Below are positions 5,046 to 49,843 of a stretch of DNA of 64,000 nt, piece after piece; the stretch's first letter is position 1; each line of letters begins with the position of its first letter. The notes under the pieces were generated by a model, which was not told where the DNA came from, did not search any database, and worked only from the letters and a program-made list of their open reading frames with translations. The stretch covers positions 1 through 64,000 of the forward strand of contig NZ_QTJY01000015.1 of NCBI RefSeq assembly GCF_003703975.1, given 5' to 3'. This stretch comes from Larkinella soli (GTDB taxonomy: Bacteria; Bacteroidota; Bacteroidia; Cytophagales; Spirosomataceae). Position numbers and translations under genes: made by a program.

Positions 5046-5282
5046 TTATTTCACATTCTCTTCCAGATACGAAATCGCCTGACCCACCGTACCGATGTTC
5101 TCAGCCTGATCGTCCGGAATCGAGATGTTGAATTCTTTTTCAAACTCCATAATCAATTCGACCGTATCGAGCGAGTCAGCGCCCAGGTCGTTGGTGAAGC
5201 TGGCCTCCGGCGTTACCTCCGACTCCTCAACACCCAGTTTCTCAACAATGATAGCCTTTACTTTGTCTGCAATTTCTGACAT
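5046..5282 (-). CDS. acpP: Acyl carrier protein
   Basis: 78 residues, acidic, with the phosphopantetheine attachment site Ser37 in GADSLDT. It carries growing acyl chains as thioesters for FabF and other fatty-acid enzymes. First gene of the acpP-fabF-rnc operon, with a recognisable promoter about 35 bases upstream. Confidence 0.97.
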
Positions 5283-5314
5283 TTCTGTATGCGTTTGGGG
5301 TTAAAAAAACTGTG

Positions 5315-5346
5315 CAAAGAAAGAGATTTAAAATAGTATTGTCAAA
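5315..5346 (-). promoter_or_regulatory. Promoter of acpP-fabF-rnc
   Basis: On the minus strand TTTG (5346-5343), a 20-base spacer and TTTCTTTG (5322-5315) fit the Bacteroidota -33 TTTG / -7 TAnnTTTG pattern with one mismatch. The expected start of transcription leaves about 25 bases of leader before the acpP ATG. Confidence 0.55.
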
Positions 5347-5549
5347 TAATTTTTTCGACCAAAAACCGCTGAAAAAACGCCTGATTTTTAATTAATTATT
5401 CAGATTTACAGGCGATTATAAAATTAAACTCCGTTCGTTTCACCCTGCCTCCCAATTGCTCCCGGCTCCCATCCCGGAGATGAAAGCCTACTATATAAGT
5501 ATACCAAGTTGCTTTTTACACCCCGGAAGACAAAGCCGATCCGATTGTG

Positions 5550-5557
5550 TAGTTTTG
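5550..5557 (+). promoter_or_regulatory. Candidate -7 element of kdsA
   Basis: TAGTTTTG is a perfect TAnnTTTG box 20 bases before the kdsA GTG. No clear -33 TTTG is visible. If it is used, the leader is only about 14 bases. The rest of the 5283-5576 gap is AT-rich divergent promoter DNA with no gene visible. Confidence 0.35.
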
Positions 5558-5576
5558 CATCAAAATCTGAAAAAAC

Positions 5577-6389
5577 GTGGACATCCCCAAGCTGAAGCAT
5601 ACCGATTCCGGCCGCTTTTTCCTTATCGCCGGCCCCTGCGCCATCGAAAGCCGCGACCTCGCCCTGCAAATCGCCGAACGAATCGTGGAGATCACCGACC
5701 GGCTGCGGATTCCCTATATTTTTAAAGGCTCCTACCGGAAAGCCAACCGCACCAAACTCGACTCCTTTACCGGCATCGGCGACCTCCCGGCCCTGGAAAT
5801 CCTGAAGGAAGTGGGCGACACCTTCGACGTACCGACTCTGACCGACTTTCACGAGTCCCATGAAGCCGACATGGCCGCCCCCTACGTGGATGTCCTTCAG
5901 ATTCCGGCTTTTCTCTGCCGCCAGACGGATATGCTCGCGGCAGCCGCCCGAACCGGCAAGGTCGTCAACATCAAGAAGGGACAGTTCATGGCCGGCGATT
6001 CGATGGGATTTGCGGTCGAAAAAGTGAAATCGGTCCGCCCCGACTCCGTCGTTTTCCTGACCGACCGGGGCAACTCCTTCGGCTATGGGGACCTGATCGT
6101 CGACTACCGGAACATTCCGGCCATGCAGGCCCAGGGCGTGCCGGTCGTGATGGACTGCACGCACTCGCTTCAGCAGCCGAACCAGTCGTCGGGCGTGACC
6201 GGCGGAAAACCCGCCCTGATCGCTACCATCGCCAAAGCCGCCATCGCCGTCGGGGCCGACGGTCTGTTCATTGAAACCCACCCCCGGCCCTCCGAGGCCA
6301 AATCGGACGGGGCCAACATGCTGCCGCTGGACCGGCTGGAAGGGCTGCTCGAAAAGCTGGTGCGGATTCGGGAGGCCATCGCCGGATAA
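5577..6389 (+). CDS. kdsA: 3-deoxy-D-manno-octulosonate 8-phosphate synthase
   Basis: 270 residues from a GTG start. The N-terminal FFLIAGPCAIESRDLALQIA and the internal KGSYRKANRTKLDSFTG and TDRGNSFGYGDL motifs are typical of KdsA of the DAHP-synthase superfamily. It condenses phosphoenolpyruvate with D-arabinose 5-phosphate to give KDO-8-phosphate for the lipopolysaccharide core. Family members are either metal-dependent or metal-free, and I did not settle which class this is. kduI follows 75 bases later on the same strand, possibly co-transcribed, although KDO synthesis and uronate catabolism are distinct pathways. Confidence 0.95.
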   Translation: MDIPKLKHTDSGRFFLIAGPCAIESRDLALQIAERIVEITDRLRIPYIFKGSYRKANRTKLDSFTGIGDLPALEILKEVGDTFDVPTLTDFHESHEADMAAPYVDVLQIPAFLCRQTDMLAAAARTGKVVNIKKGQFMAGDSMGFAVEKVKSVRPDSVVFLTDRGNSFGYGDLIVDYRNIPAMQAQGVPVVMDCTHSLQQPNQSSGVTGGKPALIATIAKAAIAVGADGLFIETHPRPSEAKSDGANMLPLDRLEGLLEKLVRIREAIAG

Positions 6390-6464
6390 TCGGAATTTCG
6401 ATGGGTCCGGCAGTAGAATCACTTTCGCCGGCACTCTCTCCCATGAAGCCTGATCCAAGCTCCG

Positions 6465-7295
6465 ATGCAGACCCGTTACACCACCAATCCGACCGATTTC
6501 CGGCAATACGATACCGAGCGCATCCGCCGGGAGTTCCTGATCGAACGTTTGTTCGAACCGGATGCCTTTTCCTTCGTCTATTCGCACTACGACCGCATGA
6601 TCGTCGGAGGAGTGATGCCCGTCACGGACCGGCCGGCGCTGCCGACCTATGACGAACTGAAGGCCGATTTCTTCCTCGAACGCCGGGAAATGGGGGTGAT
6701 CAACATCGGCGGAGCCGGAACGGTGACGGTCGACGGGCGGAGCTTCGATCTGGATAAGAAAGACTGTCTGTATGTCGGCCTGGGCAGCCGCGAGGTGGTT
6801 TTTACCAGCCGCGACGCCGGCCATCCGGCCCGGTTCGCCCTGATCTCGACCCCCGCACACCGCCCGTGTCCTACCGCCCGGCTCACGGCCGCCGAAGCCT
6901 CCCCGGCCGACATGGGCGCCCCGGAAACCGCCAACCAGCGGACCATCTACAAATACATCCATGCCGGTGGGCTGGCCGGCAGCCAGCTGGTGATGGGGCT
7001 CACTACGCTGAAGCCCGGCAACGTCTGGAACACCATGCCGCCCCATACGCACGACCGCCGGATGGAAGCCTACATTTATTTCGACCTTTCGGAAGACCAG
7101 CGGGTGTTTCATTTCATGGGTCACCCTCAGGAAACCCGCCATCTGCCGGTGGCCGACGGGCAGGCCGTGATCTCCCCGCCCTGGTCCATTCACGCGGGGG
7201 CCGGAACCACCGCCTATTCCTTTATCTGGGCGATGGCCGGTGAGAATTATACCTTTACGGATATGGATTTCGTTTCCGTGAAAGACCTTCGGTAG
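6465..7295 (+). CDS. kduI: 5-keto-4-deoxyuronate isomerase
   Basis: 276 residues, full length for KduI (cupin fold). The zinc ligands are all present: His194, His196 and Glu201 in PPHTHDRRMEAYIYF, and His243 in WSIHAGAGT. These correspond to E. coli His196/198, Glu203 and His245 with a constant two-residue offset. The enzyme interconverts 5-keto-4-deoxyuronate (from lyase-cleaved pectin or glycosaminoglycans) and 3-deoxy-D-glycero-2,5-hexodiulosonate. No kduD is next to it. It sits directly before the FecI/SusCD locus, which hints that uronates may be among the products of that system. Confidence 0.95.
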   Translation: MQTRYTTNPTDFRQYDTERIRREFLIERLFEPDAFSFVYSHYDRMIVGGVMPVTDRPALPTYDELKADFFLERREMGVINIGGAGTVTVDGRSFDLDKKDCLYVGLGSREVVFTSRDAGHPARFALISTPAHRPCPTARLTAAEASPADMGAPETANQRTIYKYIHAGGLAGSQLVMGLTTLKPGNVWNTMPPHTHDRRMEAYIYFDLSEDQRVFHFMGHPQETRHLPVADGQAVISPPWSIHAGAGTTAYSFIWAMAGENYTFTDMDFVSVKDLR

Positions 7296-35900: not shown

Positions 35901-36944
35901 TTACCAGTTTTTACGGCGAAGCCCTTCCGGGTTCAGTACCCGAATCTGGCCCTCGGTCGTTTCGATGAGCTTGTCCTGCCGGAATTCGCTGAGCGTCCGG
36001 ATGAGCGACTCGGTGGCCGTGCCGACCATCGAGGCCAGGTCGTCGCGGGAGTACTGGATGGTTTGGCCGTGGTGCTGCTGGTGGAGCCGCAGCAGGGTGT
36101 CGGCCACCCGCCGGCGCAGGGAGTTGTAGGCCATGCCCAGGAGCTGCTGCTCCCGCTCGCTGACCCGGTTCGCCAGCAGCCGGATAAACTGCCCGGCCAC
36201 CTCCTGATTGCGATTCAGCAGATCCATGAACTCCTCCTTCGGAATGTAGATCAGCTCGGAATCTTCCATCGCCACTGCCGAGTCGGTCTGGTCGGTATCT
36301 TCGAGCAGGCTGACGTAGCCGAAAAACTGGCCCGGCTGAAAAAGGCCGGTAATCAGCTCCTTGCCGTCGGGCGTGCTTTTGAAGGTTTTGACCTTGCCGG
36401 ATTTCAGAAAGAAAAGCCGCGTCGGCTCATCCCCTTCACTATATACGTATTGTTTTTTCCGGACCTGATACACCTTCCGGTCGGCGGAGAGCGACTCGAG
36501 TCCGGCCACGGTCCGGGCGTCGTGCAGAAAGGGACTCAGGCCCTCCTTCGCGGGGTCGTAGTCGCCCCGCATCTGCGTAAACCGCCTGAACCGGCCCTCG
36601 ACGGCGCTGAGCAGTTCGCTTTCGTCGAACGGTTTGGTGAGGTAGTCGTCGGCGCCCAGTTCCATGCCGCGCCGGAAGTCGCTCCGCTCGGTTTTGGCCG
36701 TCAGGAAGATGAACGGGATGGTCGACAGCTCGGGGTTCTTGTTGAAAATGTGCAGCACGCCGTATCCGTCCAGCACCGGCATCATGATGTCGCAGATGAC
36801 CAGATCGGGCCGGGTTTCGAGCGCCTTTTCCACGCCGATTTTGCCGTTTTCGGCGGTGATGACCTTATAATTGGCCAGTTCGAGGATTTCGGCCGTATTC
36901 TCGCGAATATCGTCGTTATCCTCAATGAGCAGAATGGTTTTCAT
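35901..36944 (-). CDS. Response regulator: receiver domain fused to a CRP/FNR-type regulator
   Basis: 347 residues from the ATG at 36944. REC domain 1-120 with acidic Asp9-Asp11-Asp12 region, phospho-acceptor Asp52 (CDIMMP) and Lys104. Then a cNMP-binding-like beta-roll (about 150-260) and a CRP-type helix-turn-helix (about 295-345). The recognition helix keeps Glu312 and Arg316, the positions that read the TGA half-site in FNR and CRP. It has only one Cys (51), so no FNR iron-sulfur cluster, and the phosphate cassette has Asp-Ser in place of Arg-Ser, so cAMP binding is unlikely. Phosphorylation is therefore the probable input. Overlaps the kinase gene by 23 bases. Functionally it resembles FixJ and FixK in one chain. 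Confidence 0.9.
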   Translation of the reverse strand: MKTILLIEDNDDIRENTAEILELANYKVITAENGKIGVEKALETRPDLVICDIMMPVLDGYGVLHIFNKNPELSTIPFIFLTAKTERSDFRRGMELGADDYLTKPFDESELLSAVEGRFRRFTQMRGDYDPAKEGLSPFLHDARTVAGLESLSADRKVYQVRKKQYVYSEGDEPTRLFFLKSGKVKTFKSTPDGKELITGLFQPGQFFGYVSLLEDTDQTDSAVAMEDSELIYIPKEEFMDLLNRNQEVAGQFIRLLANRVSEREQQLLGMAYNSLRRRVADTLLRLHQQHHGQTIQYSRDDLASMVGTATESLIRTLSEFRQDKLIETTEGQIRVLNPEGLRRKNW

Positions 36945-38139
36945 TGGGGAAGGTAAAGGTGACTGTGGTGCCCTGATGGAGCTGACTTTCAAGATCGATG
37001 GTGCCGTTGAGCAGTTCGATGTATTTGGCGACGATGTGCAGGCCGAGGCCCGTTCCCTGAATGTTGGTGGCGTTTTTGGCCCGGTAAAACCGTTCGAACA
37101 GGTGTTTCTGGTCTTCCTCGGAAATCCCGATGCCCTGATCCCGGATGGAGATGCGCGTCATTTCTTCGTCGCAGTGCCCCGACAGAAGAATCTCCCTGTC
37201 GTCACTGGAATATTTGATGGCGTTGGACAGCAGGTTGACCAGAATCTTCCGGATCAGCGACTTGTCCGACCATACCTGGCTCCGGCAGTCAAACTCGACC
37301 CGGATGGTCTGGCCGGCTTTCCGCATGCCCTGCACGTCGGCGACGACATCGCTGATCAGGTCGCCGAGGTCGAAAACCGCGCAGGAGGCCTTTACCCGGC
37401 CCTCTTCCAGCCGGCCGACCGACAGAAACTCTTCCAGGATGTCGTTGAGGTGGTTCACCGACGACTTGATACGCTGGATATGCTTCTGACGCTTGTCCTG
37501 CTCCTCCGAGGTTTTGTATTTTTCGAGCAGGGCCGCCGAGGTCAGCACGGCCGCGAGGGGCGTCCGGAACTCGTGCGAGGCCATCGAGACGAAGCGGGAT
37601 TTCAATTCGCCCAGTTCGCGCTCGGCCGCCAGCGCCTTCGACAGTTCATCGCGGGATTCTTCGAGCTGGTGGAGGGTGGTCATGAGCGCGTGCGTCCGGT
37701 CGGCCACTTTCTGCTCCAGCTGTGCGTTGAGCTGCTCGATGCTGTTCTTCTGCTCGATCAGCGTGCGCTCGGCTTCTTTTTTATAGCTAATGTCGATGAT
37801 GTAGGCAACGACATACAGCTTTTCGTCCTGGTAAAAATAGCTGAGACTGATTTCGGCCGGAAACACCGAACCGCCTTTTCGTTTGGCGTAGAGGTCGCGG
37901 CCGTGGCCCATTGCCCGCACCTGCGGGTCGGCATTGAACGACTCCCGGAGCCGTTCGTGGCGGCCCGAAATGGAATCGGGCACCAGAATTTCGATGGGCT
38001 GGCCCACCATTTCGGCCTCGGTATAGCCAAACAGGTTCAGGGCAAACTGGCTGACCGAAAGCATGCGCCCGCTGCTGTCGGAAAGGATAATTCCAATGGT
38101 GGCATTGGCAAAAACCGCGGAAAAAAGATCACTCACCAT
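36922..38139 (-). CDS. Cytosolic PAS-domain sensor histidine kinase (FixL-like)
   Basis: 405 residues with no membrane helix. PAS domain 3-122, coiled coil about 122-180, HisKA with His189 (SMASHEFRTPLAA), and HATPase_c (NLLSNAIKYSS, DQGIGISEED, GTGLGLHIV). In the PAS domain, His61 and Arg81 fall at the positions of the FixL haem ligand His and the oxygen-contacting Arg (VPDSISGRH aligned with MPEPYRSEH; MGHGRD with IGIGRE). The same residues occur in many PAS domains not known to bind haem, so oxygen sensing is a hypothesis. Overlaps the response-regulator gene, its obvious partner, and lies beside the cbb3 cluster. Confidence 0.92.
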   Translation of the reverse strand: MVSDLFSAVFANATIGIILSDSSGRMLSVSQFALNLFGYTEAEMVGQPIEILVPDSISGRHERLRESFNADPQVRAMGHGRDLYAKRKGGSVFPAEISLSYFYQDEKLYVVAYIIDISYKKEAERTLIEQKNSIEQLNAQLEQKVADRTHALMTTLHQLEESRDELSKALAAERELGELKSRFVSMASHEFRTPLAAVLTSAALLEKYKTSEEQDKRQKHIQRIKSSVNHLNDILEEFLSVGRLEEGRVKASCAVFDLGDLISDVVADVQGMRKAGQTIRVEFDCRSQVWSDKSLIRKILVNLLSNAIKYSSDDREILLSGHCDEEMTRISIRDQGIGISEEDQKHLFERFYRAKNATNIQGTGLGLHIVAKYIELLNGTIDLESQLHQGTTVTFTFPNENHSAH

Positions 38140-38237: not shown

Positions 38238-38251
38238 CTGATTTTTATCAG
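38238..38251. promoter_or_regulatory. FNR/FixK-like box 1 (kinase / thioredoxin-fold divergent gap)
   Basis: CTGATTTTTATCAG is a perfect palindrome TGAT-N4-ATCA, one base from the FNR consensus at each end. It lies about 80 bases before the thioredoxin-fold gene and 100 bases before the kinase gene. Matching boxes lie in the other two promoter gaps of the cco cluster. Confidence 0.55.
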
Positions 38252-38330: not shown

Positions 38331-38651
38331 ATGGAAACGCCCGCATATCAACCCATTTTTGTCCCGACCAAAACGGCAGTGCTGCTGGTTTTTATGCCGG
38401 GGCAGCCGCCCGACCGACGATCGACCGAGGGGCTGCTGCAGCGTGTGCAGGGGATCCTCGGAAATGCCGTGCGTATTACGAAAGTGGAGACGGGTCTGCA
38501 TCCGGATGTCGTCAGTACCTTTGGCGTCCAGTCGTTTCCCTCGTTCGTCCTGGTGAAGCGGGGCGTGGAGGTCTGGCGGCACAGCGGCCTGATCGACCGG
38601 GACGAACTGATCCTACTGCTTTCAGGACATTTAGGCATGGCCGGAATCTGA
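38331..38651 (+). CDS. Thioredoxin-fold protein lacking cysteines
   Basis: 106 residues from the ATG at 38331. Thioredoxin-like pattern: a strand (TAVLLVFMPG), VRITKVETGLHPDVVSTFGVQSFPSFVLVKRG with the cis-Pro (SFP), and a C-terminal helix. The CxxC site is replaced by PGQP and the protein has no Cys at all, so it cannot be a disulfide reductase. It might be a scaffold or a holdase. Divergent from the PAS kinase across an FNR-like box, in the position where rhizobial clusters often carry accessory genes. Confidence 0.75.
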   Translation: METPAYQPIFVPTKTAVLLVFMPGQPPDRRSTEGLLQRVQGILGNAVRITKVETGLHPDVVSTFGVQSFPSFVLVKRGVEVWRHSGLIDRDELILLLSGHLGMAGI

Positions 38652-38733: not shown

Positions 38734-39423
38734 TCAGACGCCGTGGCATATCGGGACTTCCGGCCGTTCCGTATCGTGCCGGTGGCCGGCCGAATATCCG
38801 ATCAGCCCCCGCCCGATGAGCAGGAGCGCCAGCACAATCGTCATCACCGGCAGGGCGGCCTGAAACCGCTGCCGCACCTTCAGCGGGAAAGCCGACGGAA
38901 TCAGCCGCACCCCGAGCAGCGCGGGAAGCGTTCCCATCCCGAACAGGGCCATGTACAGCGCCCCGTCCAAGGCCGTCGAATGGGCCAGCGCCCCGGTCAT
39001 CGCCACATAGACGAAACCGCAGGGAAGCAGGCCGTTGAAAAAGCCGACCGCCAGGAAATTGCCCGGAGTCGGGTGGGCCAGACTCCGGGCGATCGGGGCC
39101 GTCAGCCGCCGGCCGAGGGCCGAGTTGCGCAGGGCCTGCGGATACGTCCGGCTGGTGATGGTCCAGATCAGGAGCAGCACCCCGGCCCCGATCGATACCG
39201 GCCGCTGCAAACCCGTCAGCAGCAGCGCCTGTCCCGTCAGCCCCATCATCAGCCCCAGCAGGGCGTAGGCGCCGATGCGCCCGCCGTGATACAGCAGCAG
39301 GGCGGGCACCCGCTGATACCGGGGCAGCCGCCCGACCGGCAGGGCCATCGCCAGCGGCCCGCACATGCCGACGCAGTGCAGGCTCCCGGCCAGACCGGTG
39401 AAGAGGGCCGTCAGGTGCCACAT
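38734..39423 (-). CDS. TauE/SafE-family (cytochrome biogenesis-type) membrane protein
   Basis: 229 residues from the ATG at 39423, about six membrane helices. The first helix has GSLHCVGMCGPLAMAL and a later one LLPCGFVYVAMTGAL, the paired Cys motifs seen in the SafE/CcdA-like branch often annotated sulfite exporter. Members in cbb3 clusters are suspected of moving copper or reductant for oxidase assembly. Starts 4 bases after ccoH, so it is the last gene of the cco operon. Exact substrate unknown. Confidence 0.82.
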   Translation of the reverse strand: MWHLTALFTGLAGSLHCVGMCGPLAMALPVGRLPRYQRVPALLLYHGGRIGAYALLGLMMGLTGQALLLTGLQRPVSIGAGVLLLIWTITSRTYPQALRNSALGRRLTAPIARSLAHPTPGNFLAVGFFNGLLPCGFVYVAMTGALAHSTALDGALYMALFGMGTLPALLGVRLIPSAFPLKVRQRFQAALPVMTIVLALLLIGRGLIGYSAGHRHDTERPEVPICHGV

Positions 39424-39427
39424 GGTC

Positions 39428-39880
39428 TTATCGGATAAACAGTTCTTCTTCGCTGAAATAATCGACCTGCCCGTCGGACCAGACCACCTGAATTTTCCAG
39501 TAGCCTCCGGCAAGCCGGGCGGTGGAAACGATCTGCCGGGCGTCCCGCACCGGGATGCGGACGTCCTGCCGCCGGTCGGAAGGCCGGTAGAGGGTGATTT
39601 CCCCCCGGCTGACCGGGCCGGGCAGAGAGACCAGAATCTGCTTCCGTCCGGGTTCGTAGGCGAACAGGCCGGCCGTGTTCAGCATCGCCGTTCGCGCGGC
39701 CCGGTCGATCTGGTGCTGATAAGCCATCTCGGTCTGGTAGTAGTCGTCGCGGACCAGATCGACCCGCTGGCGGCACATCCAGTAGACCATGCCGCCGATG
39801 AACGAGGCAAAGAGAACGAACGTCAGCGTGATGGCACCGCCCCAGTTCATCCGGCGGTTGGGAGTGTGTGTCGTATTCAT
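39428..39880 (-). CDS. ccoH: CcoH/FixH-family protein
   Basis: 150 residues from the ATG at 39880, which follows the ccoG stop by two bases. One N-terminal membrane helix (AITLTFVLFASFIGGMVYWM), the FixH-type segment DDYYQTEMAYQHQIDRA and a beta-rich periplasmic domain (YWKIQVVWSDGQVDYFSEEE). CcoH is an assembly factor that stays bound to cbb3 oxidase. Context (ccoG before it) supports the name strongly. Confidence 0.9.
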   Translation of the reverse strand: MNTTHTPNRRMNWGGAITLTFVLFASFIGGMVYWMCRQRVDLVRDDYYQTEMAYQHQIDRAARTAMLNTAGLFAYEPGRKQILVSLPGPVSRGEITLYRPSDRRQDVRIPVRDARQIVSTARLAGGYWKIQVVWSDGQVDYFSEEELFIR

Positions 39881-39882
39881 AA

Positions 39883-41289
39883 TCAATGGGTTGGTCCGAG
39901 GAAGCTGGTCTGGATCCGGTCGATCACTTTGCCGTTCGATACCACTTCCACCTCCAGTTTGGTGTTGCTGTCCCGGAGGTTCTTCTCCGGAATCAGGATG
40001 AAAAAGACGCCTTTGGTCAGGGCATCGGGTGCGGCCTGCCCGACGGGCTGAACCAGCCGGATGCGGGCGCCCGGATACGAAACACGGAACGATACCGGCA
40101 GGCTGCGGGTCGTTTTATTGACGAATTCAATGGTATACAGATTCGAGACATAGCTCCCGGCTTCGCGCTGGAACAGCTGCCCCGGCGCCCGCAAAACCGT
40201 GGTTTCCAGATCCGAACGGCTCACCAGCAGGTAGGTCAGCAGACCAACGAGTGCCAGCAGGACGGCCGTGTAGGCTTTCATCCGGCCGGTAAATCGCAGC
40301 GGCACTTTTTTCTCGATGCCTTCGAGCGAATCAAACCGGATCAGGCCCTTCGGGCGGTTGACCTTTGCCATCACGTTGTCGCAGGCGTCGATGCAGGCCG
40401 TGCAGTTGATGCATTCGAGCTGCGTGCCGTTCCGAATGTCGATCCCGGTTGGGCAAACCTGCACGCAGAGGGCGCAGTCGATGCAGTCGCCGGTTTTCAG
40501 GGTCTCACCTTTGCGGATCTTCCCGCGCGGCTCCCCCCGGACGTGGTCGTAGGCCACGACCACCGAGCTTTTGTCGAGCAGAACCCCCTGTAGCCGTCCG
40601 TACGGGCAGATGGTGATGCAGACGATTTCCCGAAGCCGGGCGAACACCAGGTAAAAGACCCCGGTAAATACCACAATGGAAGCAAAGCCGCCGAGGTGGT
40701 TGCGCACGTCGTCGGTCATGATGGCGAACAGTTCGTCCTTCCCGATGAGGTAGGCCAGGAACGTATTGCTGATGAGGAACGAGATCAGCAGAAAGAGGAA
40801 GTGTTTGCTGACCTTCTTCGTGATCTTCGAATTGGTCCAGGGGGCGGCATCGAGCCGCTTGCGGGCGTTATGATCACCTTCGATCCAGATTTCGATTTTC
40901 CGGAACACCATCTCCATGAAAATCGTCTGCGGACAGGCCCACCCGCACCAGACACGGCCGTAGACCACCGTAAAAAGCGAGATGAACAGGATGAACGTGA
41001 TCAGCCCGATGGCGACCAGGTGAAAGTCCTGCGGCCAGAACGGAACGCCGAAGAAGATGAACCGTCGTTCGATCACATTGAACAGGAACAGCGGATGTCC
41101 GTCGACGCTCAGGAACGGCCCCCCGAAAAGGGCCGCCAGCAACACCACGGCGACCACCGTCCGCCGGCGAAGCAGCGGGCCGTTCTCGACCCGGGGGTAC
41201 AGCCAGCGCCGTCCGCCGTGGTCGTTCTCGAAAGACAGGTGATCGCGGAAGCGGTCGTTTTCGGAGGGGTTCTGAACGGAGGTTTCCAT
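39883..41289 (-). CDS. ccoG: Cytochrome c oxidase accessory protein CcoG (FixG), iron-sulfur membrane protein
   Basis: 468 residues. Several membrane helices in the N-terminal half, with WCGWACPQTIFMEMVFRKIE and the KRLD segment typical of CcoG. Two 4Fe-4S motifs: CIDCALCVQVCP and CINCTACIDACD. A C-terminal Ig-like periplasmic domain follows one more helix. CcoG is thought to reduce copper for insertion into the CcoN active site. Four bases after ccoP. Confidence 0.95.
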   Translation of the reverse strand: METSVQNPSENDRFRDHLSFENDHGGRRWLYPRVENGPLLRRRTVVAVVLLAALFGGPFLSVDGHPLFLFNVIERRFIFFGVPFWPQDFHLVAIGLITFILFISLFTVVYGRVWCGWACPQTIFMEMVFRKIEIWIEGDHNARKRLDAAPWTNSKITKKVSKHFLFLLISFLISNTFLAYLIGKDELFAIMTDDVRNHLGGFASIVVFTGVFYLVFARLREIVCITICPYGRLQGVLLDKSSVVVAYDHVRGEPRGKIRKGETLKTGDCIDCALCVQVCPTGIDIRNGTQLECINCTACIDACDNVMAKVNRPKGLIRFDSLEGIEKKVPLRFTGRMKAYTAVLLALVGLLTYLLVSRSDLETTVLRAPGQLFQREAGSYVSNLYTIEFVNKTTRSLPVSFRVSYPGARIRLVQPVGQAAPDALTKGVFFILIPEKNLRDSNTKLEVEVVSNGKVIDRIQTSFLGPTH

Positions 41290-41293
41290 GGTT

Positions 41294-42136
41294 TCAGCGG
41301 GCGGCTACCGCTTCCCCGTTTTTTTCGCCCTGCGGTTCTTTGGCGTTCGGCGGGTTGGTGCCTTTTAGGTTCAGGATGTAGCTGGCCACTTGCTGAATCT
41401 GAAGGGGATTCAGCTGTTTTTTCCAGGGAACCATTCCTTTTTCGGGAACGCCTTCGGCAATCGTGTGAAACACGGCCTTGATGTTACCGCCGTGGAGCCA
41501 GTACTCGTCGGTCAGGTTCGGGCCGACTTTCCCTTCGGCGCTCTCGCCGTGGCAGGCCGTGCAGTATTGATTGAACAGCGCCTTGCCGGATTCGATGGCC
41601 GGTGCGTCTTTCACCACCGTAACGGTGTTTTCGTTGATCGAGCCGGCTACCTTCTTCAGGTAGATTTCCCGCTGCCGTTCGGCAATGGCCACTTCCTGCG
41701 TGTATTCCTGCACCATCACGTCGCCGTCCCCGATGACGTGGTAGACGACCAGATAGACCAGGCCGATGGCAATCGTACCGTAAAAGAGCAGCATGAACCA
41801 GGGGGGCGTCGGGTTGTCGAGTTCCTGAATGCCGTCGTAGCTGTGTTCCATCATCAGCTCGTTCTCGCGTTTCAGGGGGACAAGACCTGCAAACCGCTGC
41901 CAGAGCGTCAGCGGCTCTACGGCCGGTTTGGCCTCCCCGGCGGGTTTGATCCACTCGCGAACCGAAAAGTAGAGGCCCAGGGTGACCACCAGCAGCAGGC
42001 CGGCCGCCATGGCGAGCAGCCCCAGAATGACCGCCAGCACTAAATCTTCGGTGGTTTTGATCTGAATCAGCGGACTTTCCGCGCCCGGTGCGGCAAAACC
42101 GGGCAGATTCGTAAATAAGGTCGTTGACAGATTCAT
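41294..42136 (-). CDS. ccoP: cbb3 oxidase subunit CcoP, single-haem form
   Basis: 280 residues. Two helices (about 32-56 and 113-133), with an N-terminal CcoP_N domain ending NPTPPWFMLLFYGTI, and one c-type haem site Cys192-Cys195-His196 (CTACHGESAEGKVGPNLTD) with the distal Met in GMVPWKKQLN. Proteobacterial CcoP normally has two haem sites; the single site here is the Bacteroidota arrangement. Delivers electrons to the fused CcoNO. Confidence 0.93.
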   Translation of the reverse strand: MNLSTTLFTNLPGFAAPGAESPLIQIKTTEDLVLAVILGLLAMAAGLLLVVTLGLYFSVREWIKPAGEAKPAVEPLTLWQRFAGLVPLKRENELMMEHSYDGIQELDNPTPPWFMLLFYGTIAIGLVYLVVYHVIGDGDVMVQEYTQEVAIAERQREIYLKKVAGSINENTVTVVKDAPAIESGKALFNQYCTACHGESAEGKVGPNLTDEYWLHGGNIKAVFHTIAEGVPEKGMVPWKKQLNPLQIQQVASYILNLKGTNPPNAKEPQGEKNGEAVAAR

Positions 42137-42369: not shown

Positions 42370-44547
42370 TTATTTTCGGATGTCGGTACCCAGCCGCTGG
42401 AGGTAGGCGATGAGCGCAATGATCTCGCGGTCGGAGGCTACCTTAACGCCTTCTTTTTCCAGCCGGGCGCTGATATCCTTCGCCTGGTTCTGGGCTTCGG
42501 CTTCGGCATTGTCGATGTCGATGTTGTCATACGGCACCCCGACGGCTTTCAGCGCCTTCAGCTTGGCCCCGGTGGTCGAAACGTCCAGTTTCTGATCCAG
42601 CAGCCAGGGGTAGGCGGGCATGATCGAACCGGGCGACATGGACGAGGGGTCGCGCATGTGGTGGTAGTGCCAGGAGTCGGGGTACTTGCCGCCTTCGCGG
42701 TGCAGGTCCGGCCCGGTCCGCTTCGATCCCCACAGGAACGGGTGGTCGTAGACGAATTCACCGGCCTTCGAGTATTCGCCGTAGCGCTCGGTTTCGCTCC
42801 GGAACGGCCGGACAAGCTGGCTGTGGCAGCCGACGCAGCCCTCGCGGATGTAGAGGTCGCGGCCCTCCACTTCGAGAGCGGTGTACGGCTGAACGGAAGC
42901 GATCGTCGGCACGTTGGACTCGACCATGAAGGTTGGGATCAGTTCGATCAGGGAGCCGATCAGGATCATCACCAGCGAACCGACCAGCAGCGGGAACGGC
43001 CTGCGCTCGAACCAGCGGTGCCAGTAGGTATCCTGGCCGGTCGGCACGTAGGCTTTTTCCAGGGCCGGGGCCTCGGCCGGCTCGTCGGCGACCAGCGAGC
43101 CGGCGGCCATCGTTTTGAACAGGTTGTAGGCCATCAGGATTGCCCCGGTCAGGTAGAACAGCCCGCCGAAGGCCCGCATCATGTGCAGGGGCAGAATCTG
43201 GATGGTGGTTTCGAGGAAGCTCGGGTATTTCAGGACCCCTTCCGGCGTAAACTCCTTCCACATCATGCCCTGAATGAAACCGGAGATGTACATCGGAACC
43301 GCGTAGAACAGAATGCCGAGGGTGCCGATCCAGAAGTGGGCGTTCAGCAGCTTTTTGGAATACAGCGGGGTGCGGTACAGGCGCGGGATCAGCCAGTACA
43401 GGACGGCGAAGGTCAGGAAGCCGTTCCAGCCCAGCGCCCCGACGTGAACGTGCGACACGACCCAGTCGGTAAAGTGGGCGATGGCGTTGACGTTTTTCAG
43501 TGACAGCAGCGGGCCTTCGAAGGTGGCCATCCCGTAGGCGGTGACGCCCACGACCATGAATTTCAGAATGGCATCTTCCCGAACCTTATCCCAGGCGCCC
43601 CGCAGCGTCAGCAGACCGTTGAGCATCCCGCCCCAGGACGGCGCGATCAGCATCACGGAGAATACGACCCCCAGCGACTGCGCCCAGTCGGGCAGCGAGC
43701 TGTAGAGCAGGTGATGCGGTCCGGCCCAGATATAGATGAAAATGAGCGCCCAGAAGTGCAGGATCGAAAGCCGGTAGGAGTAGATGGGCCGGTTGGCCAT
43801 TTTGGGCAGAAAGTAATACATCAGCCCCAGGAACGGCGTCGTCAGGAAGAAGGCCACGGCGTTATGACCGTACCACCACTGCACGAGGGCATCCTGTACC
43901 CCGGCATAGAGCGAATAGCTTTTCAGGGCGCTGACCGGCATTTCCATCGAGTTGACCAGGTGCAGCACGGCCACCGTGATGAACGTGGCGATGTAGAACC
44001 AGATGGCCACATACAGGTGGCGCTCCCGGCGTTTGATGATCGTGCCGAACATATTGATCCCGAACACGACCCAGATCAGCGTGATGGCGATGTCGATGGG
44101 CCATTCCAGTTCGGCGTATTCTTTCGAGGTCGTATACCCGAGCGGCAGCGTCAGGGCGGCTGCCACGATGATGGCCTGCCAGCCCCAGAAGTGGATTTTG
44201 CTCAGCAGGTCGGAGAACATCCGGGCTTTGCAGAGCCGCTGCAGGGAATAATAGACGCCCATGAAGATGGCGTTGCCGACGAAGGCGAAAATTACCGCGT
44301 TGGTGTGCAGCGGCCGGATGCGTCCGAAGGTCGTGTACTGGTTGCCGAGGTTCATCGAGGGCGAGAACAGCTGCGAAGCGATCAGTACCCCGACGAGCAT
44401 CCCGACGACCCCCCAGATGATGGTGGCGACGGCGAAGTTCCGAACGATCGCGTTGTCGTAGGCGAATCGCTCGATGACCGGCGCTCCCTCGACCGGATTC
44501 CGGCGCCCGGGCCTTTCGGCGGTGGTTGGTTGAGAAGTTACGTTCAT
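42370..44547 (-). CDS. ccoNO: Fused cbb3 cytochrome oxidase subunits CcoN and CcoO
   Basis: 725 residues. The first about 480 are the haem-copper oxidase subunit I (12 helices expected; HTNAVIFAFVGNAIF, WWYGHNAVAFFLTTPFLG with the active-site His, VVSHVHVGALGWNG with haem His pair). The C-terminal about 225 are CcoO: one helix (FPLLVGSLVMILIGSLIELI), then YIREGCVGCHSQLVRPFRSE with haem c at Cys571-Cys574-His575. The fusion of N and O is known from Bacteroidota. It is a high-affinity proton-pumping terminal oxidase for low oxygen. Confidence 0.96.
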   Translation of the reverse strand: MNVTSQPTTAERPGRRNPVEGAPVIERFAYDNAIVRNFAVATIIWGVVGMLVGVLIASQLFSPSMNLGNQYTTFGRIRPLHTNAVIFAFVGNAIFMGVYYSLQRLCKARMFSDLLSKIHFWGWQAIIVAAALTLPLGYTTSKEYAELEWPIDIAITLIWVVFGINMFGTIIKRRERHLYVAIWFYIATFITVAVLHLVNSMEMPVSALKSYSLYAGVQDALVQWWYGHNAVAFFLTTPFLGLMYYFLPKMANRPIYSYRLSILHFWALIFIYIWAGPHHLLYSSLPDWAQSLGVVFSVMLIAPSWGGMLNGLLTLRGAWDKVREDAILKFMVVGVTAYGMATFEGPLLSLKNVNAIAHFTDWVVSHVHVGALGWNGFLTFAVLYWLIPRLYRTPLYSKKLLNAHFWIGTLGILFYAVPMYISGFIQGMMWKEFTPEGVLKYPSFLETTIQILPLHMMRAFGGLFYLTGAILMAYNLFKTMAAGSLVADEPAEAPALEKAYVPTGQDTYWHRWFERRPFPLLVGSLVMILIGSLIELIPTFMVESNVPTIASVQPYTALEVEGRDLYIREGCVGCHSQLVRPFRSETERYGEYSKAGEFVYDHPFLWGSKRTGPDLHREGGKYPDSWHYHHMRDPSSMSPGSIMPAYPWLLDQKLDVSTTGAKLKALKAVGVPYDNIDIDNAEAEAQNQAKDISARLEKEGVKVASDREIIALIAYLQRLGTDIRK

Positions 44548-44560
44548 ATACTCTGATTGA

Positions 44561-44767
44561 TTACGGGATGAAAGTTTGGGCGTTTCGGGGTTTGGGCGTC
44601 GGCGAATCCGGGGGCGGCTCGGCCGGGTCGGTGTCGTCGAGCAGCATCCGGATCGACGGGGTATAGAGGTCGTCGTTCTGGCCGTGTCGCATGGCCCAGA
44701 AAAACGCGCTGAGAAAACCCAGCGCCAGCACCAGACTAATCCCGATCATGAAGAAGATTACCTGCAT
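44561..44767 (-). CDS. ccoS: cbb3 oxidase assembly protein CcoS
   Basis: 68 residues: one helix (VIFFMIGISLVLALGFLSAFFWAM) then GQNDDLYTPSIRMLLDD, the conserved CcoS tail (normally GQFDDLxxPAxRML). Required for cofactor insertion into cbb3 oxidase. First gene of the ccoS-NO-Q-P-G-H-safE run, 13 bases before ccoNO. Two palindromic sequences lie in its upstream region. Confidence 0.93.
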   Translation of the reverse strand: MQVIFFMIGISLVLALGFLSAFFWAMRHGQNDDLYTPSIRMLLDDTDPAEPPPDSPTPKPRNAQTFIP

Positions 44768-44775
44768 CGTTGTAA

Positions 44776-44795
44776 TGGTATCTTTTGCGATACCA
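44776..44795. promoter_or_regulatory. Palindrome directly upstream of ccoS
   Basis: TGGTATCTTTTGCGATACCA: 7-base arms TGGTATC/GATACCA with a 6-base centre, 9 bases before the ccoS ATG. Spacing suits a dimeric regulator; position so close to the start would suit repression or an mRNA hairpin. Confidence 0.4.
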
Positions 44796-44845: not shown

Positions 44846-44859
44846 GTGATTTGGGTCAG
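44846..44859. promoter_or_regulatory. FNR/FixK-like box 2 (upstream of the ccoS operon)
   Basis: GTGATTTGGGTCAG contains TGAT-N4-GTCA, i.e. TGA-N6-TCA, one mismatch from a perfect dyad. It lies about 80 bases before ccoS, abutting the repeat copy B. Compare boxes at 38238 and 48398. Confidence 0.45.
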
Positions 44860-45909: not shown

Positions 45910-45940
45910 AAAAATACGCATTTCCCCGATTCTCCGTCAA
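45909..45940 (-). promoter_or_regulatory. Promoter of the SAM-hydrolase-family gene
   Basis: Minus strand TTG (45940-45938, overlapping the ccoI stop), 21-base spacer and perfect -7 TATTTTTG (45916-45909). The start of transcription would fall inside the left arm of the hairpin, so transcripts from here would escape the terminator that stops ccoI read-through. Confidence 0.6.
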
Positions 45941-48351
45941 TCCCGGTTTTCCGGAAACAGTTTCCGGCCTTTCCAGCGCATCCCGAGCGTGGCGATCAGT
46001 ACCATCGTGGTCGAGCTGAGCGGCATCAGGATGGCGGCCACGATGGGCGAGAGGTTGCCGGTGATGGCGTAGGAGACACCGACGAAGTTGTAAATCAGAG
46101 AAATACAGAAACTAAATCGGATCAGCTTCATCCCGAACCGGCTGTAGCGGAGCATATCCGGCAGGCGGCTCAGGCTCCCGGCTTCCAGAATACCGTCACT
46201 GGCGGGCGTAAACTGAATGGTGTCGTCGGTAACGGCGATGCCTGCGTCGGCCTGTCTGAGCGCCCCGGCGTCGTTCAGGCCGTCGCCCACCATCAGCACC
46301 CGCCGGCCGTTGGCCTGGAGCGACCGGACGAAATCCAGCTTTTCCTGCGGGTGACACTCGAACACCATCTGCCCGTCGTTCGGGAACCAACGCTTCAGGT
46401 CGGCCCGGGCGGCTTCGTTGTCACCTGACAGCAGGTACAGGGAATGGCTTTTCTTCAGGCTGCTCAGCACCCCGGTAATGCCGGCCCGGTACTGGTTCGG
46501 GAAGCGGAAACAGCCCCGGTAGACGTGGTCGATACTCACATGGACCGCCGACCCCTCCGTATCGAGTGTTTTCCCCGGGGAGGGATGCACGAATTCCCGC
46601 GAACCGATCTTGACGAACTGGTCGTACACCAGCCCTTTGATGCCCTGCCCCGGCACTTCGGTAAAGTTGTCGACCGGCAGAATCATCGCGTCGTACAGGT
46701 AGCCGGCCACTTTCCGGCTCAGCGGGTGGGCCGAGTGCCGCACCAGCGAGGCCACGAGCGAGAGTTCCATCTCGTTGAGCGGTACGGCAAACGTCTCGAC
46801 AGGCTGGGCGGTCGCGCTGGACGTCAGCGTCCCGGTTTTGTCGAACACGATCGTGTCGCAGGCCGCCATCTTCTCGATCACGTCGGCATTTTTCAGATAC
46901 AGTTTCAACCGGCTGAGCAGCCGCATCCCGTTGCCCAGCGCAAACGGGTAGGAAAGCGACAGTACGCAGGGGCAGGCGACGATCAGAATGGCCGTGAAGA
47001 CGTTGACGGCCTTCGACGGCTCGGTCACGTACCAGTAGGTGCCGGCGACAAGAGCCAGCGCCAGCACGCTGAGGGTGAAGTACTTCCCGACGACATCGGC
47101 GAATGTCCGGATGCGGTCCGACCACTTGCGCCCGCCCTCGTCCTTCCGGAAGGCGTCGTTGTTCCAGAGCTGGGAGAGGTAGCTGTGCGATACCGACCGG
47201 ACCACCTCCAGTTCGATGGCTTCGCCGACCTGCTTGCCGCCCGCATAGAGCAGCGCCCCCGGTTTGCGGCTTTCCGGCTCCGATTCGCCCGTTACGAAGC
47301 TGTAGTCGATCAGCCCCTGGCCTTTATACAGAATCCCGTCGGCCGGGATGAGTTCCTGGTTGCGGATGCGGATGCGGTCGCCTTTTTTGAGTGAGGCAAT
47401 CGGAACGGGAGTTTCGGTTTTTCCCCCGATCAGCGTAGCCGCCAGCGGAAAATAGGACTTGTAATCCCGCTCGAAGGAAAGAAAATCGTAGGTACGCTGC
47501 TGAAACCATTTGCCGATCAGCAGAAAGAAAATCAGGCCCGTGACCGAGTCGAAGTAGCCGGCGCCGGTGTCTGTAACCACTTCATACATCCCCCGGAAAT
47601 AGGCCGTCAGGATGCCGAGCAGAATAGGCAGGTCGATGTTGATCATCTTCCGGCGCAGGGCCGCCCAGACCGATTCGAAATACCCCCAGCCGGAATAAAA
47701 CACGACCGGTGTCGCCAGCATGAGGTTGAGATACAGGAAAAGCCGCCGGAACGAAGGGTCGTCGAGCCCGAGGTATTCCGGAAAACTGAACAGCATGATG
47801 TTGCCCGCGCAGAAACCCGCCACCGCCAGCTTATACAGCAGCGGTTTGTAGGTCGGCCGGTTCTGCTCCTCCACCACGTCGTTCAGGCTGATGAGCGGTT
47901 CATAGCCCAGCGAAGTCATCAGTTCGGCCACCTGGCGCAGGGAGATGTCTGTCTGCCGGAAGCGGATATGGACGTTCTTCTTCAGGAAATCGACCCGCGA
48001 CTGGAGGATGGACGGGGCGATCCGGTACAGGTGTTCGAGCAGGTACAGGCAGGAACTGCAATGGATGGCCGGCACATAAAAAGTAACGTGGGTCTGCGTA
48101 TCGTCCGAAAACCCGGTCAGTTGGCTGATGATGTCGGGATGGTCCAGAAATTCCAGCCGGGCCAACCGGGGCGTCTGGCCCGGGTTGGGCGTTATTTCGT
48201 AATACCGGCAAAGCCGGCTGTCGTTCAGCACTTCGTAGACGGTCTTGCATCCGTCGCAGCAGAACGCCTTGTCATTGAGGAGGATCGGGTGTGGCGGGCA
48301 ATCGCTGCCGCAGTGATAGCAGGTAAGTTTCGTAACCGTTGCCGTATTCAT
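45937..48351 (-). CDS. ccoI: Copper-translocating P-type ATPase (CcoI/FixI)
   Basis: 804 residues from the ATG at 48351. N-terminal Cys-rich segment (Cys11, 14, 18, 31, 32, 35; CYHCGSDCPP, FCCDGC) then an HMA-like domain with Cys98/Cys101. P1B ATPase core: TGES, CPC at 460-462, phosphorylation Asp504 (DKTGT) and GDGLNDAG. Eight helices are expected. CcoI supplies copper for cbb3 oxidase assembly. Divergent from hemN across an FNR-like box and ended by a hairpin. Confidence 0.94.
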   Translation of the reverse strand: MNTATVTKLTCYHCGSDCPPHPILLNDKAFCCDGCKTVYEVLNDSRLCRYYEITPNPGQTPRLARLEFLDHPDIISQLTGFSDDTQTHVTFYVPAIHCSSCLYLLEHLYRIAPSILQSRVDFLKKNVHIRFRQTDISLRQVAELMTSLGYEPLISLNDVVEEQNRPTYKPLLYKLAVAGFCAGNIMLFSFPEYLGLDDPSFRRLFLYLNLMLATPVVFYSGWGYFESVWAALRRKMINIDLPILLGILTAYFRGMYEVVTDTGAGYFDSVTGLIFFLLIGKWFQQRTYDFLSFERDYKSYFPLAATLIGGKTETPVPIASLKKGDRIRIRNQELIPADGILYKGQGLIDYSFVTGESEPESRKPGALLYAGGKQVGEAIELEVVRSVSHSYLSQLWNNDAFRKDEGGRKWSDRIRTFADVVGKYFTLSVLALALVAGTYWYVTEPSKAVNVFTAILIVACPCVLSLSYPFALGNGMRLLSRLKLYLKNADVIEKMAACDTIVFDKTGTLTSSATAQPVETFAVPLNEMELSLVASLVRHSAHPLSRKVAGYLYDAMILPVDNFTEVPGQGIKGLVYDQFVKIGSREFVHPSPGKTLDTEGSAVHVSIDHVYRGCFRFPNQYRAGITGVLSSLKKSHSLYLLSGDNEAARADLKRWFPNDGQMVFECHPQEKLDFVRSLQANGRRVLMVGDGLNDAGALRQADAGIAVTDDTIQFTPASDGILEAGSLSRLPDMLRYSRFGMKLIRFSFCISLIYNFVGVSYAITGNLSPIVAAILMPLSSTTMVLIATLGMRWKGRKLFPENRD

Positions 48352-48397: not shown

Positions 48398-48411
48398 ATG
48401 ACAACAATCAG
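48398..48411. promoter_or_regulatory. FNR/FixK-like box 3 (ccoI / hemN divergent gap)
   Basis: ATGACAACAATCAG contains TGA-N6-TCA (48399-48410; TGAC-N4-ATCA, one dyad mismatch). It lies about 47 bases from the ccoI start and 65 bases from the hemN start, well placed for control of both. Confidence 0.45.
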
Positions 48412-48475: not shown

Positions 48476-49843
48476 ATGAACAGCGCCGAACTCAGCCGAA
48501 AATACAACGTTCCCGGACCCCGCTACACCTCCTATCCGACCGTACCGTTCTGGGAAGCCGGCACCTTCAGCGAAGCCGTCTGGATCGGGCGGCTGCAAAC
48601 CGCCTTCATCGAAAGCAACCGGCGGCAGGGCATCAGCCTGTACATCCACCTGCCGTACTGCGAAAGCCTCTGCACGTTCTGCGGCTGCAACAAGCGAATT
48701 ACCCGAAACCACACCGTCGAACGGCCCTACATCGATGCGGTGCTGAAGGAATGGAAACTGTATACCGACCTGTTGCCGGGGCGGCCCCGGATCGCGGAGC
48801 TGCACCTCGGCGGGGGCACGCCCAGTTTCTTCAGCCCCGCCGAACTCCGGCGCCTGCTGGAAGGTATTTTCAGGCTGGCCGACCCGGCCGACGAAACCGA
48901 ATACGGCTGGGAGGGGCATCCCAACAATACCACCCGGGAACACTTGCAGACGCTTTACGACTTCGGTTTCCGGCGCGTCAGCTTCGGCGTACAGGATTAT
49001 GACCCGGCCGTCCAGAAAGCCATCCACCGCATCCAGCCGTTTGAAAACGTCCGGAAGGTAACCGAATGGGCGCGGGAGATCTGCTACACCTCCATCAGCC
49101 ACGATCTGGTGTACGGCCTGCCGTTTCAGCGGCCGGAAAGCGTCGAACAGACTGTCCGTCAGACGCTCCGGCTCCGGCCCGACCGCATCGCCTTCTATTC
49201 CTACGCCCACGTGCCCTGGCTGAAAGGCACCGGCCAGCGCGGTTTCCGCGATGAGGATCTGCCCGCCGGGGAGGCCAAACGGCTTCTTTACGAAACCGGC
49301 CGGGCGCTGTTCGAAGCGGGCGGCTATTCCGAAATCGGTATGGACCACTTCGCCCTGCCCGCCGACGCCCTGAGTAAAGCCGCCGGGCAAGGTACGCTGC
49401 ACCGGAATTTCATGGGGTATACAACCACCCGGACGCAGGTGCTTCTGGGGCTCGGCGTGTCGTCGATCGGCGACATCTGGACGGCTTTCGCCCAGAACGA
49501 AAAGGACATCGACCGGTATCTGGAAAGGGTCGATGCCGGGATGCTTCCTTTAGTGAAAGGCCACGCCCTCGATGCCGAAGACTTGTTTTTACGAAAACAA
49601 ATCCTGAATATCATGTGCCGCTTCGAAACCCGCTGGAACGGGAACGACTGGACCGGTGAAGAATGGTCCGGGCTTCAGGAAAGCCTGGAAGAGCTGCGCC
49701 GGGACGGCCTGATCGACTTCAGCGAAACCGGGTTACGGGTGCGGCCCGCCGGACGGCCTTTTCTGCGGAACGTCTGCATGGCGTTCGACCAGCGCATGAT
49801 CCGCAGCCGGTCGGCGCAGCGGTTATTTTCCACGACCTTGTAA
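48476..49843 (+). CDS. hemN: Oxygen-independent coproporphyrinogen III oxidase
   Basis: 455 residues, typical HemN length. Radical-SAM motif Cys62-x3-Cys66-x2-Cys69 followed by Cys71 (YCESLCTFCGC), the GGGTPSFF SAM-binding motif and the C-terminal HemN_C domain. It decarboxylates coproporphyrinogen III without oxygen, sustaining haem synthesis under the same low-oxygen conditions in which the cbb3 oxidase works. Its divergence from ccoI with a shared FNR-like box is a familiar arrangement in FNR regulons. Confidence 0.95.
   Translation: MNSAELSRKYNVPGPRYTSYPTVPFWEAGTFSEAVWIGRLQTAFIESNRRQGISLYIHLPYCESLCTFCGCNKRITRNHTVERPYIDAVLKEWKLYTDLLPGRPRIAELHLGGGTPSFFSPAELRRLLEGIFRLADPADETEYGWEGHPNNTTREHLQTLYDFGFRRVSFGVQDYDPAVQKAIHRIQPFENVRKVTEWAREICYTSISHDLVYGLPFQRPESVEQTVRQTLRLRPDRIAFYSYAHVPWLKGTGQRGFRDEDLPAGEAKRLLYETGRALFEAGGYSEIGMDHFALPADALSKAAGQGTLHRNFMGYTTTRTQVLLGLGVSSIGDIWTAFAQNEKDIDRYLERVDAGMLPLVKGHALDAEDLFLRKQILNIMCRFETRWNGNDWTGEEWSGLQESLEELRRDGLIDFSETGLRVRPAGRPFLRNVCMAFDQRMIRSRSAQRLFSTTL

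Follow-up and report, generated by a model that had tools for sequence, protein, structure and literature searches.

Two kinds of described systems come closest to the locus analysed here. In the rhizobial FixL-FixJ-FixK cascade, with which we group the hFixL-FxkR-FixK system (PMC7888657), a PAS-domain kinase, a receiver protein and a regulator of the CRP/FNR family have the cbb3 oxidase as their target. In FNR-type regulation, represented by Escherichia coli FNR and by solitary FNRs encoded near ccoN, a regulator with the same type of helix-turn-helix (HTH), an E-x-x-x-R recognition helix and cysteine ligands for an iron-sulphur (Fe-S) cluster goes together with TGA-N6-TCA boxes and a cbb3 target. 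The window studied here, a stretch of 64,000 nt of contig NZ_QTJY01000015.1 of Larkinella soli, carries next to its cbb3 genes a gene pair encoding a PAS histidine kinase and a response regulator in which a receiver (REC) and a CRP/FNR-type half form one chain. We consider it probable, at roughly 0.7, that kinase and fusion are a two-component system for microaerobic respiration that activates the cbb3 genes via TGAY-N4-RTCA boxes; the pair probably switches on the adjoining high-affinity oxidase. With the receiver and the CRP/FNR output in a single chain, the system has one transcriptional step fewer than FixL-FixJ-FixK, and by analogy it is best read as working functionally as a one-step FixLJ-K. 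By predicted domain content, it is a two-component system with a response-regulator output of the CRP/FNR family, and not a FixJ, a FixK or an Fe-S FNR.

A full-text literature search, with most subscription papers and the response-regulator censuses outside its scope, found no paper describing a system of a kinase and a REC-CRP protein, and within the same limits it returned no account of the switch to high-affinity respiration in Bacteroidota that lack FNR. In Flavobacterium psychrophilum the cbb3 oxidase is strongly up-regulated at oxygen limitation (PMC9723704), and the term 'Crp' is absent from the main text of that paper. New in the present analysis are the box at the kinase, ccoS-NOP and FixI/HemN promoters, the co-occurrence of the fusion with CcoN, the sharing of recognition helix and box with FNRs, and the presence of a FixL-type PAS domain in 14/83 relatives. 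The switching question becomes directly testable in Bacteroidota, because the regulator and kinase concerned can now be named, along with a DNA box and three promoter regions.

The receiver-CRP/FNR fusion and its partner kinase

The regulator gene occupies 35901..36944 on the minus strand and encodes 347 amino acids, from an ATG at 36944 to the stop at 35901 (the mechanical open reading frame, ORF, begins at a TTG at 36992); ORF, Pfam, alignment and structure model all enter into its assignment. Pfam places Response_reg at residues 4-116 (1.7e-27), cNMP_binding at 160-246 (2.4e-24) and HTH_Crp_2 at 279-344 (1.5e-17). The phosphotransfer residues of the receiver, Asp9, Asp52 (the phospho-acceptor), Thr82 and Lys104, are all present, and like Glu312 and Arg316 they are invariant across 33 aligned fusions, namely the window protein and 32 of the 58 translated relatives described below. 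Glu312 and Arg316 belong to the motif TATESLIR in the winged HTH and align with the Glu and Arg of 'RETVGR' in E. coli CRP and 'VETISR' in E. coli FNR. These two residues of the recognition helix are the ones that read bases in CRP and FNR, and the CRP half of the fusion should, judging from this match, read TGA half-sites. The determinants of the two classical inputs are missing: in the alignment with E. coli CRP, the Glu and Arg of the cAMP site are replaced by Tyr and Asp, and in that with E. coli FNR, the N-terminal cysteines that ligate the Fe-S cluster have no counterpart, Cys51 being the sole cysteine of the protein. The first-pass annotation, made from the letters alone, had already described an Asp52 receiver and a CRP/FNR half in one chain, with the two base-reading residues kept and neither Fe-S cysteines nor the cAMP-site Arg, and it had placed both this gene and that of the kinase correctly.

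A cNMP-type beta-roll, a long helix and an HTH_Crp_2 domain with E-x-x-x-R assign the protein to the CRP/FNR family, and an intact receiver pocket together with the adjacent histidine kinase gene mark it as a response regulator. It is not a FixJ, its output being HTH_Crp_2 and not an HTH of the LuxR/NarL type, nor a FixK, its CRP half being fused to a receiver and not solitary; it belongs neither to the cAMP-binding CRPs nor to the Fe-S FNRs. The receiver obtains its top scores with OmpR/PhoB-type regulators, which differ from the fusion in having the OmpR winged helix in place of a CRP/FNR-type output, and no FixJ model is among the best 25 of 107 families. The earlier designation 'FixJ-FixK-like fusion' is apt for the probable function, a single step with boxes at the cbb3 promoters and at that of the pair itself, and not supported for descent, given the OmpR/PhoB-type receiver and a CRP half whose recognition helix is shared with FNRs. 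In the AlphaFold model (mean pLDDT 81.5, pTM 0.43) the receiver core is confident, the linker is weak (lowest at 126-135 and 146-155) and the CRP half contains a helix of 44 residues (247-290). The 50 PDB matches listed in a fold search are CRP/FNR-family proteins of 197-234 residues, so that none of those listed spans both halves; the best match to the CRP half by both sequence and fold, the CRP-family protein 4ev0 of Thermus thermophilus (TM 0.77 on the target), has no receiver. Cys51 (codon 36792-36794) adjoins the phospho-acceptor and is likewise invariant in the 33 aligned fusions; a redox role is conceivable, but a cysteine at this place is also present in two other receivers of the same genome. 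Two response-regulator genes that face each other on contig C21 of this genome, at 5198-6292 (+) and 6308-7060 (-) of the stretch L025, encode receivers that are both 52% identical to that of the fusion, joined (both by eye) to a kinase-like ATPase half and a LytTR-like half, respectively.

The kinase gene (36922..38139, minus strand) encodes 405 amino acids of PAS-HisKA-HATPase_c architecture, as assigned from Pfam, alignment, hydropathy and model, with the H-box phospho-acceptor His189 and the N and G boxes present. It overlaps the regulator gene by 23 bp (36922-36944), a length that recurs identically in 24 of 85 paired relatives. The hydropathy maximum over 19 residues, 1.72 at residues 1-19, coincides with the start of the PAS domain, where the model has a helix (2-11) and a strand (16-20), and we therefore see no convincing membrane segment, which agrees with the initial description of the kinase as lacking one and overlapping the fusion gene. 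At the threshold used for membrane segments in relatives (1.6 over 19 residues), which the window kinase slightly exceeds in its PAS domain, 74 of the 85 paired kinases have no segment of this length above it. Three paired kinases (L215, L216 and L232) have three or four hydrophobic segments and are not soluble, and in three other loci (L225, L230 and L236) the fusion is preceded by kinases of 1,076-1,105 amino acids, that of L230 with several PAS domains and a GAF domain, so that a far larger sensor feeds the same output.

From this architecture we infer that the kinase would autophosphorylate at His189 in response to a PAS signal, for which low oxygen or a redox proxy of it is the best candidate, and that the phosphoryl group would pass from His189 to Asp52 of the fusion. 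Phosphorylation, not cAMP or an Fe-S cluster, would then put the CRP/FNR-type dimer into its DNA-binding state. The active fusion would bind TGAY-N4-RTCA and activate ccoS-NOP and FixI/HemN, and it would also activate its own operon and the divergent thioredoxin-like gene.

Distribution of the fusion and its DNA box

The CRP half, used as a query against 200 genomes of the window's family (cut-off 1e-20), matched in 180, and every one of the higher-scoring matches listed has an open frame of at least 317 amino acids, which leaves room for a receiver. In a sample of 296 genomes from the phylum (cut-off 1e-25) there were 75 matching genomes, 42 of them with an open frame of at least 340 amino acids and all 42 in the window's class. 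All 58 relatives translated from the two surveys (L028-L085) are full-length fusions. A further search gave 80 loci, from which 67 were dropped because their matches reach no further than query residue 188; the 13 named loci left (L086-L098) belong to Chitinophaga, Jiulongibacter, Arcticibacter, Flavobacterium, Aquimarina, Salinimicrobium and Sphingobacterium and to assemblies with no label beyond Chitinophagaceae, Crocinitomix, Flavobacteriaceae or Bacteroidetes. A second set of 80 places, each taken with up to 20 kb of sequence, was chosen by hand from the family and phylum surveys; it represents 22 of the 36 family genera, has 40 places from the phylum sample that lie outside the family, and contains paralogues. 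With the 13 named loci it makes up a set of 93 loci. Directly upstream of the fusion, with its end between -400 and +100 bp from the fusion start, lies a kinase-length ORF with an H-box in 85 of the 93 (two are short, at 213 and 269 amino acids), and the two proteins look like one two-component system, as had been proposed for the window. Genes of the cco type occur on 34 of the 93 stretches (most about 20 kb long), upstream or downstream, on either strand and in several orders; for scale, a cco cluster measures about 10 kb and the genomes several megabases.

A survey of co-occurrence with cbb3 bore out the association drawn in the first-pass annotation. In the family, CcoN is present in 162 of the 180 genomes with a CRP-half match, versus 1 of the 20 without (Fisher 1.8e-15, for genomes that are not independent), and the lone exception, G033, is 87% complete. 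Five genera (g5, g13, g26, g32 and g36) have members missing both the regulator match and CcoN next to members with both, and in g5, g26, g32 and g36 at least one genome without both is at least 95% complete. Three genomes (G060, G083 and G092) have only a weak CRP-half match (~1e-35) and a 237-aa FNR, so that the match may be the FNR itself. In the phylum sample, CcoN was found in 38 of the 42 genomes with the fusion versus 163 of the 254 others. The fusion is tied to cbb3 genomes but not confined to them, and it is absent from many of the phylum's cbb3 genomes.

Twenty solitary relatives were picked from the phylum sample. These proteins are 225-270 amino acids long, all but one (L318) have a CxxC within residues 1-50, and four cysteines are invariant in the 12 that were aligned. 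The cysteine-bearing FNRs share their recognition helix with the CRP half of the fusion, and in ten stretches with CcoN the solitary FNR lies 2.0-4.3 kb from ccoN, with the box in 9/10 of the ccoN upstream regions. As helix and box are common to both groups, the phylum seems, as far as sequence can tell, to have two switches for the same box, one an FNR of the Fe-S type and the other an FNR-like protein that can be phosphorylated. One DNA-binding module would then occur in nature with either an Fe-S cluster or a receiver as its input device. The fusion differs from the FNRs in having no cysteine ligands, a receiver in front and presumably activation by phosphotransfer, and a supported branch splits the groups: in a quick tree built from the CRP halves of 94 fusions, the 20 solitary relatives and E. 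coli FNR and CRP, a branch with an SH-aLRT of 99 sets the FNRs apart. A single origin of the fusion is compatible with this; the fusion label has to change twice on the tree, which we attribute to the E. coli CRP row, both E. coli rows being very long branches. An FNR-length, N-terminally complete match, top-ranked and with a clear gap to the fusions, was found in 14/200 family genomes, among the matches listed, and in none of the nine genomes of the window's genus on the same basis. In the genome of L. soli itself, the fusion is the one HTH_Crp_2 protein clearly above the Pfam cut-off (a 193-aa protein reaches 27.4 against 27) and the one FNR-profile match at 1e-45, and neither search found an Fe-S FNR. 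One genome of another genus (G001, genus g2) has both regulators in one locus, with an FNR-type gene about 2 kb from the fusion gene (contig C6, 1432756-1436066).

Three boxes of the form TGAY-N4-RTCA stand at the predicted target promoters of the window. Box 1 (38239..38250; CTGATTTTTATCAG with flanks) lies between the divergent kinase and thioredoxin-like genes, about 105 bp and 86 bp from their respective starts. Box 2 (44847..44858; CTGACCCAAATCAC on the operon strand) is about 85 bp upstream of the first gene of the ccoS-NOP unit, a small membrane protein seen in translation (44561..44767, minus strand) that we take to be CcoS-like from its position and sequence. Box 3 (48399..48410; TGACAACAATCA) is in the intergenic region between a gene for a FixI/CcoI-type copper ATPase (45937..48351, minus strand; likely start 48351, mechanical ORF from 48399) and a divergent gene (48476..49843, plus strand) for a radical SAM protein identified by family match, presumably HemN-like and of oxygen-independent haem synthesis. 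Box centres in the window lie some 53-105 bp upstream of the start codons. Relatives also carry boxes in the kinase/thioredoxin intergenic region, and one locus (L174) has the identical 14 letters at the ccoS box site. The whole window holds 14 matches to the pattern versus 2.66 in shuffles, and 3 of the 14 fall in the 527 bp of the kinase/thioredoxin, ccoS and FixI/HemN intergenic stretches (p ~2e-4, for regions chosen post hoc).

The pattern was derived from palindromes upstream of ccoN and other cco genes in relatives, and the first counts are not independent of its discovery, because it was found and then counted on overlapping data; spacing controls and a subset of loci without FNR are the better tests. 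Upstream lengths were chosen by the analyst (200 bp; 300, 350 or 400 bp for ccoN), and the P-values for box counts treat related loci as independent. Within 200 bp upstream, the box is present at 37/85 paired kinases (expected 4.0), 4/10 FixI genes (0.5) and 12/23 HemN-like genes (1.1), and within 400 bp of CcoNO, with ccoS-internal matches masked, at 19/22 (1.8). The mask is a rule of thumb, a ccoS-like ORF having been found in 9/22, of which that of L092 looks false. On the same 22 stretches and 400 bp, spacings of 1, 2, 3, 5, 6 and 7 gave 1, 3, 0, 1, 0 and 0 matches, and over the gene classes, spacings of 2, 3, 5 and 6 and five scrambled half-sites stay near expectation, with the exceptions of spacing 2 at CcoNO (3/22) and AGTY at HemN (2/23). 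Since Fe-S FNRs would read the same box, the count was repeated in the 34 family loci whose genomes yielded no Fe-S FNR, where the box is upstream of 14/31 kinases (expected 1.3), 11/12 HemN-like genes (0.5) and 9/12 CcoNO genes (0.8); among the controls, spacing 1 at kinases (3/31, expected 0.7) and spacing 2 at ccoN (2/12) are somewhat raised and the others near expectation.

Other candidate operators were set aside. A perfect palindrome near ccoS, GGTATC-N6-GATACC (44777-44794), was first taken for the operator and rejected: with up to three mismatches it occurs 21 times in the window versus 19 in shuffles, and it was not found in the ccoN upstream regions of relatives that were examined. 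TTGAT-N4-ATCAA, the classical FNR box, was discarded as a consensus because it has 10 matches of which 1 is upstream, and TTGA-N6-TCAA with one mismatch is in excess in the window (32 versus 17.8) but scattered. YTGAS-N4-STCAR, intended as a scrambled control, was itself enriched (8/40), because TGA-N6-TCA is still inside it. A scan of the L. soli genome gave 51 CTGAY-N4-RTCAG sites versus 9 for the backward control. We do not claim a wider regulon, because of seven further genome sites considered individually (L263-L269) two (L263 and L269) are located between ORFs, the other five fall within an ORF or at its start, and none of the seven has an evident respiratory target.

The PAS domain and its likely signal

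A comparison of the window PAS domain with PDB sequences at 0.01 gave 14 matches, including seven of FixL, the best among them, and six of DosP/Dos haem sensors. In FixL, a histidine of the PAS domain binds the haem and further residues form the pocket around it. His61 of the window kinase, on a modelled helix (55-70), falls in the column of the haem histidine and Arg81 in that of a pocket arginine, while the remaining pocket residues differ. All 83 paired kinases of at least 380 amino acids carry a PAS domain, which is of the FixL type in 14, of the window's type in 57 and of other types in 12. His61 is kept in 76/83 (14/14, 57/57 and 5/12, respectively), and all 57 domains of the window type have Arg75, a residue that FixL does not have. 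Because the patterns used for sorting the types take in residues 76-82, the constancy of Ile77, Gly78 and Arg81 in the FixL type and of Met77 in the window type follows in part from the sorting itself; the constancy of His61 and Arg75 is independent of it. The fetched loci also encode 95 unpaired PAS domains, and in their alignment, which is rough for distant PAS domains, four have a histidine in the column of His61, three of them truncated copies of paired kinases (L033, L054 and L055) and the fourth in L101.

Four FixL-type relatives score 161-173 bits on the rhizobial FixL model, with the PAS domain as the best-fitting stretch in 3/4. Some relatives, Arcticibacter (L092) among them, have a FixL-type PAS next to their cbb3 genes, which points to oxygen as a likely signal of this family of PAS kinases. 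For the window kinase, oxygen or haem sensing appears likely, and the case for oxygen as the signal is weaker than in the FixL-type relatives. We give slightly less than an even chance to the narrower idea that the window kinase senses oxygen via a PAS haem, as FixL does: the PDB matches and the histidine that is universal in both main PAS types and rare in unpaired domains argue for it, and the divergent pocket and the non-FixL Arg75 of the window type argue against it and suggest that the ligand may be something other than haem. A broader evolutionary scenario, which we offer tentatively and hold to be rather less probable, is that Bacteroidota moved the oxygen sensor between molecules, in that the Fe-S cluster of an FNR-type regulator was lost, a receiver was acquired a single time and control passed to a PAS kinase that senses oxygen by haem, with a FixL-type PAS in some lineages and the His61/Arg75/Met77 PAS in that of the window. 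If true, the latter PAS would represent an undescribed class of haem or redox sensor.

Competing readings and the neighbouring genes

Several observations weigh against the proposed system. The CRP-half match occurs without CcoN in 18/180 family genomes, and the fusion does so in 4/42 fusion-bearing genomes of the phylum sample, so that the regulator must have other targets there. An exact box within 200 bp is missing from 48/85 paired kinases, FixI has none in the loci without FNR (0/3), and the CcoNO matches in L179 and L183 proved to be coding matches inside ccoS, arising from codons for Met-Ile-Gly-Ile/Val-Ser, and were removed. On the sensor side, the window PAS has Ala76 and Met77 versus Ile-Ile in the 14 FixL-type domains, and His79 versus Ile in 9/14. 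The rhizobial FixL model (NCBIfam) fits the kinase part of the window protein best, not the PAS, at 105 bits versus a cut-off of 850, and a Foldseek search of the modelled kinase was led by WalK, LOV-kinase chimeras and HK853, with no FixL-labelled entry among the 50 matches listed.

Fusion-bearing genomes without CcoN would also suit a general two-component system responding to redox, nitric oxide or energy state that merely neighbours the cco genes, the boxes being read by another CRP/FNR regulator. Candidates for such a reader exist: CRP-like proteins of about 190 amino acids are encoded in the same genome, one of them at the HTH_Crp_2 cut-off, and elsewhere an Fe-S-type FNR with a like helix, 2.0-4.3 kb from ccoN, would read the same box. 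We regard this reading as unlikely, since no Fe-S FNR was seen in the L. soli genome, two of the three short CRP-like proteins (L271 and L272; the HTH of L267 was not read) end in an HTH without E-x-x-x-R, the boxes persist in family loci without FNR at ccoN (9/12) and HemN-like genes (11/12), and the presence of the regulator tracks CcoN. Marginally less probable still is a reversed sign, in which phosphorylation represses, or the unphosphorylated form binds DNA, with the kinase working chiefly as a phosphatase when oxygen is high. Some response regulators do repress when phosphorylated or bind DNA unphosphorylated; the placement of the window boxes relative to start codons would suit activation of the CRP/FNR kind. 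Activation of the cbb3 genes by the phosphorylated fusion is the reading we prefer.

The cbb3 oxidase had been said to lie next door, and the cluster is indeed on the same strand as the pair, beyond a divergent gene for a thioredoxin-fold protein without cysteines (38331..38651, plus strand; likely start 38331, mechanical ORF from 38214). Because this opposite-strand gene separates the pair from the cluster, kinase and regulator look like a transcription unit of their own. The cluster continues, all on the minus strand, with a DsbD_2-type membrane protein (38734..39513) and FixH/CcoH (39428..39886), both from Pfam, CcoG (FixG/RdxA; 39883..41289) and CcoP (41294..42136), both from family models, and a CcoN-CcoO fusion of cbb3 oxidase subunits I and II (42370..44547; PRK14485, 1319 bits). 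Relatives of the cysteine-free thioredoxin-like gene, which shares the region of box 1, stand beside the kinase-fusion pair in many loci of the family.

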